A stretch of 64,000 bases of DNA from Malaciobacter molluscorum LMG 25693 (GTDB lineage: Bacteria > Campylobacterota > Campylobacteria > Campylobacterales > Arcobacteraceae): NCBI RefSeq assembly GCF_003544935.1, contig NZ_CP032098.1, forward strand, positions 1,798,001 to 1,862,000. The letters run 5' to 3'. The notes under the pieces were generated by a model. It made no database searches and was not told the DNA's origin. It saw only the letters and a list, made by a program, of their open reading frames with translations. Below are positions 17,475-21,343 of this stretch, piece after piece (positions within the stretch are counted from its first letter, which is position 1; every line of letters starts with the position of its first letter). Both the position numbers and the translations under genes were made by a program.

Positions 17475-17759
17475 TTACGAGTTTATTTTTTGATAAAAAG
17501 TTTTTAAAAAATCTAGATCAATTGAAGATAACTGTTCAATTATAAAGGTATTTACATTTTTTAAATCACCAAGCTTCTCAATAACTCTAGATAGAAGTAT
17601 AATAATTATATATGATTCATTATTTTTGACTCTTGGATCACGTAGAGGTATAATCTCATCAGCAGCACTAGATAAACGCATAATTCCTTTTTTATGAATA
17701 TTTCCTTCTTTATCTATAAAACCTTCTGGCAATTCAAACTCAAACATTATTTTAGACAT
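17475..17759 (-). CDS. Orphan protein resembling phage-tail/injection-system assembly factor
   Basis: A 94-residue soluble protein: FEFELPEGFIDKEGNIHKKG, then MRLSSAADEIIPLRDPRV, then YIIIILLSRVIEKLGDL. From memory, this order (a strand followed by MRLATAADEI-LPLRDPRV and LLSRVI-LG) is that of small proteins encoded in phage-tail-like and contractile injection loci. No tail genes lie nearby, so this is an orphan or a remnant in the defence island. Its start overlaps the end of a truncated DUF2779-like frame. The family link rests on pattern recall only. The following 17,241-17,474 stretch holds no gene that I can see. Confidence 0.55.
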   Translation of the reverse strand: MSKIMFEFELPEGFIDKEGNIHKKGIMRLSSAADEIIPLRDPRVKNNESYIIIILLSRVIEKLGDLKNVNTFIIEQLSSIDLDFLKTFYQKINS

Positions 17760-17893
17760 AAATTAATCCTTTTTTTTAATATATCCTGTGTTTGTTCATT
17801 TAATAGTGTTAAAACACTTGGCTTATACTTTTTAAGCCAAAGTGCTTTTGGGCATTGTATGCCTTTTGTGTAAAGGGATTTAGATATGTTCAT
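17747..17893 (-). pseudogene. Truncated N-terminus of a DUF2779-type protein
   Basis: Directly after the stop of the helicase gene (TAA then ATG) a frame of 48 residues opens with MNISKSLYTKGIQCPKALWL, the beginning of DUF2779-domain proteins, which are normally several hundred residues long and, as I recall, nuclease-related. The match continues through KYKPSVLT and then stops within about 20 residues. The remainder is missing, and the orphan gene at 17,475-17,759 occupies its place. This looks like a deletion relic of a third gene in the defence operon. Confidence 0.6.
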
Positions 17894-20410
17894 TTATAAA
17901 TACTTTTTAACTTCAAATTTAAACAACTCTGGTTGATTTTCTAAATATCTTAGAAAACCATTTATAGGAATAAAATTTCCATTTTCATCTAATTTTAAAT
18001 TTGTATATTGTTTATCTTTAATTAATTTACTAATAATATTAACATTCAGACCCATTTTTGAGAAATTAATTAATTTTTCGTCATTTGTACCATAAGTATT
18101 AATATTATATTCACTTTCACTAATTAATTCAAAATCATATAAAAAGTTTATTAATTTATTTAATTTAAAACTAACAAAATCTTCTTCTATCTTTAACTTT
18201 ACTATTGCTAAGTTTATTAGTTTTGCATTATCTTCTTTTGTATCATTATTATATTTTGACAAATCAACATAAACTTCTCTTAATCTATAGTCTTTATGAT
18301 TATATTTTTTTGATTCTTTTTTAACTTCACCATAAGTACTTCCAATAAACAATAAAGTATCTGTTGAATTAGCTTTCTCTTTAAAATATGAGTATGTACT
18401 ATTTATATTCTTTTTTAATGTTAATTTTTGCATTTTTTCTAAATAGTTTTTATAATATTTATATGCTTTTTCATTTTTAAGTCGTTCTATCTCAAAATCA
18501 GTAATATTATTTTCTAAACCATGAATGAAAATATTATAGACTTTTAATACTAAATCTATATTTCTAAAACTATCATTGTTTCTAAAACTGTTAATTTTAT
18601 TCTCTATAAAACCACATACGTAATCTAAATTATCATAAAAATCGTCAATATTATTTTGTATAAAATATTTTTTTACTACATCTTTAAAAGACAATGCTAT
18701 ATTTTCATCTAATAAAAAATTAGTTTTTTCTACTATTTCTTTATCATTCTTTCTTTTTTTTTCTTTTACTTCTTCTTTTGTTTCATATTCAGTTTTTAAA
18801 AACTTTAATTTATCAATATCATATTGAGATAGTAAAGGATTTTTAATCTCATCAGAAAAGCTATGATTTCTTAAATAATTGATATGATTTTCCATACCTG
18901 AACGACCTCTATATATATCTGTATTTACAAAATGTATATTTGAAACTAGTTTACTTAAATTATTTTCTTTAAAAACATAACTAAGTCTATTCACTCGTCC
19001 AATTAAATTTACTAAATCTTTCCCATTTTGATAATCCGTACTCAAAATATATAAGTTATCTATAGGAAGATTAATACCTTCAAGTATTACACTATTAGCA
19101 ATTATATATTTGAAACTGTCAATCTCTTTAAATTGATGTTCCAAATATTCCTTTATTATATTTGGCATTTTTGCATGAATATAAATAATCCCTTTTTCAA
19201 GTAATTCATTTATATAGAAACCAGAATGTACTTCATCCGCTAAAGTATCTATAATTTTTTGTATAGATGTATCAATTACTATATTTTCAAATATAGCCTG
19301 CTTTTTCAAGTCATTAGCAAACAATTCTATTTTATATGGACTATAATGAAAAATAAAATTTTTATTTTTTGATGAACTTTTTATATATGTAAATTCATCT
19401 ATATTAGACAAATATGGTTCTAGAAACTCTCCTGTAAACTTGTCATACATTGATACTGTATTATTTTTAAAAAAATATATATCATCACATTTTAAATTAT
19501 GTTCTATTTCATAAGTATCTATTCTTTCATTTCTATTTTGTTTAAGATTATTACTATCTTCAATTAAAGGTGATAAATATATAACCTTTTGGTTTTCATT
19601 TTTAATCTTATTCATTTTAATTAACCGAGATAAAATTAAACTTCTTGAATCATCACGTCTCTGTTCAAATATTTTATGTGCTTCATCTATAAATAATATT
19701 TCGAAAAAAACACCTTTATTAAGTAATCTTGTAGCTCTTTCTTGTGTTAATATTCCAATAAATCTTTTTTGGTTTTGATACATTTCATCATGCAAAATAA
19801 GTTTATAATCTAATTTTAATTCTTTAATGTTTTTAAATGTTTGAATAATTAAAGATTTAGAAGGTACTATAATTCCAATTTTAGAATATTGTTTTTTTCT
19901 AATAAACGTAGAAATTAAAGAACTTTTTCCAAAAGATGTTGGTGCAATAAAACTGAGACTATTTGAGTCACTTTGTAATAGTTTTTTTATTGAATTACTT
20001 TGTTCTAATGTTTCTACATATTTATCTTGTTCATTTATAAACTTTGATTCTAGGATTTTATGACTAATAACCTCTGATATACTATTTAATGATAAACTTT
20101 GATTATCTACTATTGTTTTACAAATAGGATAAAACCCTATTTGTAAACTAATATCATATAAAGGTCTCATATCTTTAAATAATAATGAATATTTTAAAAC
20201 AATATAATATGCTAATTTAAAATAACTTTTATACCTTTTATCTTTATTATAAAAATTAAAAAATAAAATTGCACATAATAAAATATACTCTTGATTTTCC
20301 TTCGTAATATCTTTATCATTCTGAATTAATTTATAAAAAGTATCTTTAAATTTATCGGTATTCTTTAAGTTACTTAATTGTCTTTTTTCTTTTCCTTTAT
20401 TATATGTCAT
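17894..20410 (-). CDS. DEAD/DEAH helicase, HamB/AbpB-like defence protein
   Basis: An 838-residue superfamily 2 helicase. Walker A is APTSFGKSS (about 156-164), the DEAH box is at 242-245 (FIDEAHKIF), and the second RecA domain ends in the arginine-finger motif NLIGRVNRL (about residue 475). A long helical C-terminal region follows, rich in Lys and Asn. It overlaps the upstream nuclease-like gene by 11 bases. A coupled pair of a small PD-(D/E)xK protein and a helicase of this size is the layout of the anti-phage systems Hachiman (HamA/HamB) and AbpAB. The exact system is inferred from layout and motifs, not from a search. Confidence 0.72.
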   Translation of the reverse strand: MTYNKGKEKRQLSNLKNTDKFKDTFYKLIQNDKDITKENQEYILLCAILFFNFYNKDKRYKSYFKLAYYIVLKYSLLFKDMRPLYDISLQIGFYPICKTIVDNQSLSLNSISEVISHKILESKFINEQDKYVETLEQSNSIKKLLQSDSNSLSFIAPTSFGKSSLISTFIRKKQYSKIGIIVPSKSLIIQTFKNIKELKLDYKLILHDEMYQNQKRFIGILTQERATRLLNKGVFFEILFIDEAHKIFEQRRDDSRSLILSRLIKMNKIKNENQKVIYLSPLIEDSNNLKQNRNERIDTYEIEHNLKCDDIYFFKNNTVSMYDKFTGEFLEPYLSNIDEFTYIKSSSKNKNFIFHYSPYKIELFANDLKKQAIFENIVIDTSIQKIIDTLADEVHSGFYINELLEKGIIYIHAKMPNIIKEYLEHQFKEIDSFKYIIANSVILEGINLPIDNLYILSTDYQNGKDLVNLIGRVNRLSYVFKENNLSKLVSNIHFVNTDIYRGRSGMENHINYLRNHSFSDEIKNPLLSQYDIDKLKFLKTEYETKEEVKEKKRKNDKEIVEKTNFLLDENIALSFKDVVKKYFIQNNIDDFYDNLDYVCGFIENKINSFRNNDSFRNIDLVLKVYNIFIHGLENNITDFEIERLKNEKAYKYYKNYLEKMQKLTLKKNINSTYSYFKEKANSTDTLLFIGSTYGEVKKESKKYNHKDYRLREVYVDLSKYNNDTKEDNAKLINLAIVKLKIEEDFVSFKLNKLINFLYDFELISESEYNINTYGTNDEKLINFSKMGLNVNIISKLIKDKQYTNLKLDENGNFIPINGFLRYLENQPELFKFEVKKYL

Positions 20411-21194
20411 TTATGTACCTTATAAAGTTGTCAATAGATTTTTTATTAATACAAATAATATTCATTTTTTTATATTCATAATCTTTAATAAGTTTCTTTA
20501 ATTTTGTTTCTAAATCAATATTATCAATTTTATTCCAGCCACTTTCTAAATATATTGTTGAACTAGGTATAACATTAAAATTTTTAATATTTTCAAAATC
20601 TTTTTTTACAAATCTTTTTTTGAAAATGTTTAAATTATCAATTAATGTTTTATTAGGATTAACTTGTAATAAACTAGCATGATTTACTGCATTGTTCCAT
20701 GGACTTATGGGCTTTTTATTTGAATCAAATTTTTTCCCTTGAAGTTTTTTATCTATATCATGAAAAGCTTCACCTATATTTTTATTATGGTTAGAAACCT
20801 TAGTAGTTGATAAACTAGACTTACTCTCATATATCCACATTTCTTCATTTAACTGATACAATCCATCAAATCCTTTTTTCATAGAACCTTGTTCTTCTAA
20901 ATTTTGAAAAATAAAATGTTGCTCAAAATCAAGTTCTTTCATATATAAATGACAAAAAAATTCTGCAACAAAGCCTGCTTTTTTATTTTCATCTTTTTTG
21001 TAAAACCAATTTTGCAATTCTATTTTAACTATTTCTATATCATCATCGCCAAGAACCCCATTCCAAATTGAAGCAATACCTTCATCAAGTGTTTCTTTTA
21101 ATTTAGAATCATAATCTTCTATATTAATAAAATGAAAACTTAATTTATTTTTTTTAATTTCAATTAAATGACTATCAAATGGATTTATATTCAT
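20400..21194 (-). CDS. PD-(D/E)xK nuclease-like HamA/AbpA-type defence protein
   Basis: A 264-residue soluble protein with what looks like a nuclease core: Glu78 in AGFVAEFF, Asp110 in KGFDGLY and Glu123-x-Lys125 in IYESKSS, the spacing expected of a PD-(D/E)xK fold. This fits the DUF1837/HamA-type partner of Hachiman helicases, where the helicase releases the nuclease on sensing aberrant DNA; that mechanism is family knowledge, not visible here. The ATG overlaps the TGA of a preceding gene fragment (ATGA) and has an AGGAGG site, showing that it was once downstream of another coding gene. Confidence 0.65.
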   Translation of the reverse strand: MNINPFDSHLIEIKKNKLSFHFINIEDYDSKLKETLDEGIASIWNGVLGDDDIEIVKIELQNWFYKKDENKKAGFVAEFFCHLYMKELDFEQHFIFQNLEEQGSMKKGFDGLYQLNEEMWIYESKSSLSTTKVSNHNKNIGEAFHDIDKKLQGKKFDSNKKPISPWNNAVNHASLLQVNPNKTLIDNLNIFKKRFVKKDFENIKNFNVIPSSTIYLESGWNKIDNIDLETKLKKLIKDYEYKKMNIICINKKSIDNFIRYINDI

Positions 21195-21343
21195 ATATTA
21201 TCCTCCTGCTTCAAATCCAAAACACTCATCCCATCACCCTTAAGCTCAACCTTTATCTGCAATGGAATTCTCTCTTTTGGTGCTTCACTTACTGAATTTT
21301 GTAATTGATTTAGTACATTTAGTGCTAGTTTATATTTGAAGTT
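21191..21343 (-). pseudogene. C-terminal fragment of an unidentified gene
   Basis: A 50-codon open frame without a start, ending ERIPLQIKVELKGDGMS then VLDLKQEDNI and a stop that overlaps the start of the HamA-like gene. Its codon use (many GAG, AAG and CTT) and the four-base overlap mark it as the true end of a former operon gene. The frame is closed on its upstream side by stops in the CRISPR-like repeat region, so the rest has been deleted. I do not recognise the family. Confidence 0.45.

Follow-up and report, generated by a model that had tools for sequence, protein, structure and literature searches.

The anti-phage system Hachiman (HamAB) combines a nuclease, HamA, with a helicase, HamB. 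According to the sections of the reports cited here, the NAH helical bundle of HamB binds HamA in the characterised system (PMC12278908), the catalytic motif of HamA reads D-GEXK (PMC12799240) and Hachiman type II is defined by HamC (DUF3223) beside hamAB (PMC8565338). Related systems include AbpAB, in which AbpA is a 538-residue protein with an N-terminal Cap4 nuclease (PMC10732053) and a HamA part that carries catalytically inactive residues (PMC12278908), and HamMAB, where the HamA site is lost in virtually all protease-HamA fusions (PMC12799240). Here we analysed a 64,000-nucleotide stretch of the Malaciobacter molluscorum LMG 25693 genome (NZ_CP032098.1, positions 1,798,001 to 1,862,000; hereafter the window), which encodes a 264-residue protein and an 838-residue protein in overlapping frames. 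A preliminary description of this DNA had proposed Hachiman or AbpAB for the pair. Judging from sequence comparisons, we conclude with a probability of about 0.86 that the hamAB pair is a divergent Hachiman system, and we infer that it serves in phage defence. The Hachiman half of the earlier proposal was supported, directly for HamB and through intermediates for HamA, while AbpAB fell on protein length and active site.

The hamA-hamB gene pair

The 838-residue protein was matched by nine PADLOC HamB models. The best of these, HamB1 (1e-40), is colinear with it, residues 30-816 aligning to positions 36-822 of an 845-position profile, so that the C-terminus is covered up to residue 816; the predicted model is of low confidence there. 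By profile match, this protein is a HamB helicase. Its Walker A motif, which the preliminary description regarded as diverged, is ordinary for HamB: the identical APTSFGKS is found in eight other HamB proteins of the same order (L028, L029, L030, L032, L033, L034, L037 and L038). When a profile of the window HamB and its two relatives in genomes G005 and G143 was compared with PDB sequences, it matched 9wh1_B (1.3e-41), AbpB 8zue_B (4.6e-20) and HamB 8vx9_B (1.1e-9); the partner chain of 9wh1_B is named AbpA/HamA C-terminal domain protein. In the predicted model (m9f56ecb34f1a), the N-terminal region shows 10-residue means of the predicted local distance difference test (pLDDT) of 47-84 over residues 11-120, with lower values on either side. 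This all-helical N-terminus, modelled with moderate confidence, is what would be expected of an NAH bundle and is a candidate for HamA binding.

For the 264-residue protein, the assignment runs through relatives. A protein in G005, from the same genus, shares 29% identity with it (E 4.2e-8), and its gene is likewise followed by a hamB gene. Since this relative passes the Pfam HamA cutoff (PF08878; 43.8 bits against a cutoff of 25), the window protein can be tied to HamA (DUF1837, PF08878); the G005 relative matches no PADLOC model, and the G143 relative matches PADLOC HamA1 (2e-8) and not PF08878. Profile-profile comparison of the window HamA and these two relatives with nine canonical HamA proteins gave E 1.2e-8 at a probability of 95.6, and a seven-sequence version gave E 2.2e-7 at 93.5. 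These results support a HamA-type protein, reached through intermediates rather than by direct model match. In an alignment of nine HamA-type proteins (those of the window, G005 and G143 plus six canonical HamA), the columns without variation, leaving the start aside, are K72, G74, E78, G108, D110, E123 and K125. The four residues singled out in the preliminary description as a nuclease site (Glu78, Asp110, Glu123 and Lys125) were correctly placed, and each is invariant in all nine rows. An 18-row HamA alignment (A7) put the active site wrongly and was not used for the HamA model. Scans of genome contigs found no close relatives of either window protein; viral contigs yielded nothing close, either with the 264-residue protein or with the three-row HamA alignment as query, and tblastn of the 264-residue protein against plasmids and phages matched nothing.

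The gene pair itself is real. Both open reading frames (ORFs) lie on the minus strand and overlap by 11 bases, bearing out the earlier observation of a small protein overlapping an 838-residue DEAH helicase. Chance ORFs are excluded: when the region was shuffled 200 times at the mononucleotide level, stretches without a stop codon were at most 120 codons long, and the longest per shuffle had a mean of 75. An AGGAGG sequence lies 7 bases before the first ATG of hamA. The features of the locus are collected in Table 1.

Table 1. Features of the hamAB locus, in window positions
Feature	Position	Strand	Basis
hamA-like gene, putative PD-(D/E)xK effector nuclease, 264 residues	20400..21194	-	Homology via relatives, nine-row alignment
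hamB gene, superfamily 2 (SF2) Ski2/Hel308-like DEAH helicase, 838 residues	17894..20410	-	PADLOC, PDB profile match, HamB tree
AGGAGG ribosome binding site before hamA	21202..21207	-	Sequence
HamA catalytic stretch Asp110...Glu123-x-Lys125	20820..20867	-	Invariant in 9/9 aligned HamA-type proteins, window included
HamA Glu78 codon, acidic residue after the Lys72-x-Gly74 stretch	20961..20963	-	Invariant, nine-row alignment
HamB N-terminal all-helical region, residues 5-146, candidate HamA-binding NAH bundle	19973..20398	-	Predicted model
HamB Walker A APTSFGKS, residues 156-163	19922..19945	-	Sequence, comparison with other HamB
HamB motif II DEAH, residues 242-245	19676..19687	-	Sequence
HamB motif VI GRVNR, residues 471-475	18986..19000	-	G471, R472, R475 invariant among 24 HamB (alignment A8)
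sbcC 3' end remnant with internal loss; stop overlaps hamA start (ATGA)	21191..21328	-	DNA match, translation
DUF2779 5' end remnant; ATG directly after hamB stop	17778..17893	-	DNA match, translation

Lineage and distribution

A hamA-type gene is followed by hamB in all eight intact loci (the window, L022, L023, L046, L047, L048, L049 and L050), L047 being a near-copy of L046, so that two of the seven intact loci outside the window are near-copies. Two further loci are not intact: L024 is cut by a contig end, and L051 (5325-7388, genome G432) is a deletion remnant in which an in-frame fusion joins a relative of the window hamA to the later part of hamB. L051 seems to be a decayed copy from which an internal deletion took the rest of hamA and the Walker A/DEAH part of hamB. 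A profile of the HamA lineage found members in 6 of the 397 genomes of the phylum, the genome of the window and the L051 remnant included.

A HamB tree of 39 rows places seven HamB proteins, the window's among them, on one side of a branch with an SH-aLRT (approximate likelihood ratio test) value of 99, and within this clade the window HamB is deepest. The tree drew on 23 of the 51 viral loci L072-L122 and on nine other Campylobacterales loci, holds no reference HamB or AbpB sequence (that of ECOR31 is absent) and leaves aside L024, L030, L032, L034-L036, L039, L047, L051 and L123 as partial, duplicate, broken or non-matching. Five other HamB proteins of the window lineage reach PADLOC best scores of 223-254 bits, compared with 630 for a canonical HamB fragment from G166. 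The PADLOC HamA models find nothing in L022, L048 and L049 and give weak matches in L023, L046 and L050. Because HamB has its own tree branch and HamA lies outside the PADLOC and Pfam models, sequence comparison supports a separate Hachiman lineage, in keeping with the distinct subtype that the preliminary description had allowed for. In this way Hachiman would come to include a lineage with a nuclease that is missed, or only just picked up, by the PADLOC and Pfam profiles used here, and such systems may therefore be under-counted.

The relatives occur in varied surroundings. In L048 (4108-7427), a hamAB pair of the window lineage lies between phage tail genes (sheath, minor tail and tape-measure families) as phage-carried cargo, and in L049 the G459 pair is near ORFs that, judged by eye, resemble an IS3-type transposase and a VirD4-type coupling protein. 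A Staphylococcus aureus plasmid (L123:7636-10835, NZ_CP077937.1) encodes a distant relative of HamA where the annotation gives two short hypothetical genes; short helicase genes follow it and rlmH adjoins. Among the viral contigs L072-L122, 26 of 47 HamA-type ORFs are 420-520 residues long, and in 13 of 14 shorter ones (alignment A7) FGxS stands at the canonical GExK position, suggesting that these HamA parts are inactive.

Flanking remnants and a proposed slot between sbcC and DUF2779

The hamAB pair lies between two gene remnants, which are the most informative part of the locus and went unmentioned in the preliminary description. The sbcC remnant is 90% identical over 90 bp to the sbcC gene of G004, which Pfam types as SbcC, and belongs to the longer sbcD-sbcC type; the DUF2779 remnant matches the G005 DUF2779 gene at 86% identity over 121 bp. 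There is no DUF2779 match anywhere in the genome of the window. In G143, from another family, the order sbcD-sbcC-hamA-hamB-DUF2779 is intact. G004, of the same genus and with the same tpx neighbour, carries both DUF2779 and sbcCD, separated by a GajA-like gene and others, and in G005 DUF2779 lies beside tpx, with no sbcCD there and with hamAB on another contig. Most likely, as far as these comparisons of gene order tell, sbcC and DUF2779 once bounded an exchangeable slot into which the pair came as cargo, and both flanks would have been eroded later in this genome. That hamAB is intact here although both flanks are remnants speaks against a strict need of hamAB for SbcCD or DUF2779 in cis. 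Beside the DUF2779 remnant, a 94-residue ORF (window 17475-17759) has no Pfam hit and weakly resembles tail assembly chaperones (phrog_508, E 0.0024).

According to the part of PMC3985635 drawn on here, DUF2779 is RNase H-like, is presumed to act as a 3'-5' exonuclease and has a PD-(D/E)XK-like DUF83 domain. It is found in 79 of the 296 genomes of the order, and we sampled one locus from each of 40 of these 79, mostly high-scoring loci on long contigs; five of the 40 have less than 10 kb upstream. An sbcD-sbcC-type pair lies upstream on the same strand in 20 of the 40 loci (19 of 35 when only loci with 10 kb or more of upstream sequence are counted). The longer type accounts for seven of these 20 pairs and the shorter for 13, and the pairs span four families. 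L125 has sbcD-sbcC and DUF2779 with no cargo, and L162 has only a 139-residue piece of DUF2779. The sbcD and sbcC labels were assigned by BLAST against the G004 and G143 genes, and Pfam was then run on five pairs. In the longer type (L065, L125, L153), SbcD_C and SbcC_Walker_B are over the cutoff; the shorter type (L023, L124) consists of a calcineurin-like phosphoesterase and a Rad50-like ATPase, for which 'SbcCD' is a looser name because SbcC_Walker_B is at or just under the cutoff. Both sizes of sbcC, about 780-800 and about 1030-1190 residues, were seen in the bracket among L124-L163, as if the slot arose or was captured twice.

Nineteen of these loci carry cargo. It is co-oriented with its flanks in 65 of 68 ORFs, in 14 of the 19 loci the start of the first cargo ORF (with starts set mechanically) is no more than 35 bases from the sbcC stop, and in 15 the last one ends no more than 50 bases from the DUF2779 start. 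We compared 28 cargo proteins from the 19 loci and one from G004 with PADLOC at 1e-4; 24 of the 29 were matched, with at least one matching protein in 18 of the 19 loci, and the remaining locus, L133, gave no match among the two of its seven listed cargo ORFs that were compared. The cargo resembles Qat, Gabija, OLD, Lamassu LmuB, Ppl, PDC-M49 and PDC-S06, with hamAB in G143, although PADLOC models cross-match among AAA ATPases and some of these subtype names are loose. Weaker matches come from L155 and L162 (on the opposite strand), and L135 has a split GajA. Among hand-picked control proteins from outside the bracket, 1 of 10 matched (Fisher p 8e-5, for loci that are not independent by descent).

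Of 29 plasmid records with DUF2779, seven were inspected. In four of these, all from Aliarcobacter, sbcC and DUF2779 are present and the cargo differs each time: one ATP-binding protein; WYL, hypothetical and DUF6602 proteins; SIR2, DUF87, DUF6602 and other proteins; and QatABCD, this last plasmid being the one that contains locus L153. Of the four pairs compared, three show about 93% identity along sbcC up to a point at most 4 bases from its stop; in the fourth, homology stops 10 to 22 bases before the stop. In all four it restarts 0-7 bases from the DUF2779 start. The remaining three plasmids have no bracket within 9 kb, though one of them carries SbcCD close by on the opposite strand. In L166 (4243-4327), an 86-bp copy of the DUF2779 start, a remnant like that of the window, lies between two cargo blocks, as if one cargo had been inserted behind another. 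A second variable stretch follows DUF2779 and precedes dgt in Aliarcobacter plasmids (L164 10448-14540 compared with L168 10860-15177), possibly a second slot. Among the open-access papers listed on DUF2779, SbcCD or Arcobacter/Aliarcobacter defence we found no description of the slot between sbcC and DUF2779, which may still be published; the table for one such plasmid lists SbcD, SbcC and DUF2779 in this order, without a comment on defence in that table (PMC6690266).

The arrangement can be read in two ways. We tentatively propose, at rather under even odds, that sbcD-sbcC-[slot]-DUF2779 is a plug-in defence operon of the Campylobacterales, in which unrelated modules are swapped as whole cassettes and the constant nucleases cooperate with the occupant. 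Recombination in the conserved flanks would exchange Gabija, Lamassu, Qat, Ppl, OLD and Hachiman between sbcC stop and DUF2779 start; SbcCD, or the shorter Mre11-Rad50-like pair, together with the DUF83/RNase H-like DUF2779 protein might, for example, make or clear the DNA ends that the module senses. An ordinary defence island, with genes piling up and no precise exchange, would fit the 20 of 40 DUF2779 loci without an intact upstream sbcC (four of these 20 having less than 10 kb upstream), the three of seven inspected plasmids without a bracket and the two cargos that L166 seems to carry in a row. Against it stand plasmid breakpoints within 4 bases of the sbcC stop (three of four) and 0-7 bases of the DUF2779 start (four of four) and the shared strand of 65 of 68 cargo ORFs, and we regard it as unlikely. 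The site matters more than the pair. If sbcC and DUF2779 indeed mark an exchangeable slot, the Campylobacterales genes found between them make strong candidates for new defence systems, and what the two constant nucleases do can then be tested directly against a background of different cargo.

Alternative readings and comparison with known systems

Several observations weigh against a Hachiman assignment of the window pair. The profile search suggested in the preliminary description succeeded for HamB, with its nine models, and failed for the 264-residue protein, which is above cutoff in no PADLOC, Pfam or NCBIfam model. Sequence searches found no solved relative of this protein, the weak matches of one of them having E > 1; its predicted model is poor (pLDDT 46.7), and the glycine of the published D-GEXK motif is replaced, giving Y-E-S-K in the window HamA and T/C-E-V-K in seven relatives. 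As for the helicase, the deposited name of 9wh1_B is DNA polymerase theta helicase, and spliceosomal Brr2-type helicases (2.4e-11) come below AbpB and above the characterised HamB 8vx9_B in the PDB profile search. The predicted HamB model is weak (pLDDT 58.3), and in its Foldseek search, which only supports the helicase class, polymerase theta and Hel308 come first, 8zue_B is fifth and HamB 8vxa has rank 32. The window HamB also has a long end branch (1.73) and an odd composition in the HamB tree, and the pair could be in decay like the genes that flank it.

A leftover with no present function would fit the remnants of sbcC and DUF2779 on either side, and the G432 relative is a fused deletion remnant; in the window, however, both frames are full length, the checked motifs are intact and a ribosome binding site is present, which makes this reading improbable. 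Marginally less probable still is a housekeeping nuclease-helicase for DNA repair. HamB has a fold like those of the Hel308 and polymerase theta helicases, and the former neighbours sbcC and DUF2779 are DNA-processing genes, but the pair is patchy (the HamA-lineage profile finds 6 of 397 genomes, its own included), its L048 relative sits among phage tail genes and the slot is otherwise mostly occupied by defence-like genes. AbpAB, in which the HamA-like part is inactive and a separate N-terminal Cap4 nuclease is the effector, is suggested by AbpB 8zue_B, the second PDB sequence match of the helicase. Because of the HamA length and the intact active site we rejected it as highly improbable: 264 residues are too short to hold a Cap4 domain, the characterised AbpA has 538, and the D-ExK residues D110, E123 and K125 are in place.

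If the pair is Hachiman, its two proteins would presumably, like their characterised counterparts, form a complex, sense DNA damage, degrade DNA and protect against phage. By analogy with characterised Hachiman, HamB would load on broken or partly single-stranded DNA arising from phage replication, hydrolyse ATP and release or activate HamA, and the freed HamA would degrade phage and host DNA.

Compared with Hachiman type I (HamAB of E. coli ECOR31), the window locus has the same order of A and B genes, a HamB-family SF2 helicase, a D-ExK HamA and, as predicted, a helical HamB N-terminus. It differs in that HamA lies beyond the PADLOC and Pfam models and has Tyr rather than Gly before the catalytic Glu, in that HamB is 838 residues long, compared with 1174 for 8vx9_B, and in the position of HamB on its own branch of the HamB tree (from which the ECOR31 sequence is missing). 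With respect to type II, the flanks of the window pair are the sbcC and DUF2779 remnants and the 94-residue ORF without a Pfam hit, rather than hamC. AbpAB shares a Ski2-like helicase partner that is distantly similar in sequence; unlike AbpA, the window HamA has no room for a Cap4 domain and keeps its catalytic residues. HamMAB, in which a protease-HamA protein is found with the pro-nuclease HamM, likewise has a HamB helicase and a HamA domain, whereas the 264-residue protein has no room for a protease fusion, carries no trypsin-like protease extension and retains an intact HamA site, and the sbcC remnant, not HamM, lies directly upstream. Finally, the slot resembles the defence hotspots of E. 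coli and Pseudomonas, as far as the accounts consulted describe them, in that different defence systems occupy one place. It differs from them, within the same accounts, in that its flanks, sbcC and DUF2779, are co-oriented with the cargo and the breakpoints lie beside the stop and start codons.

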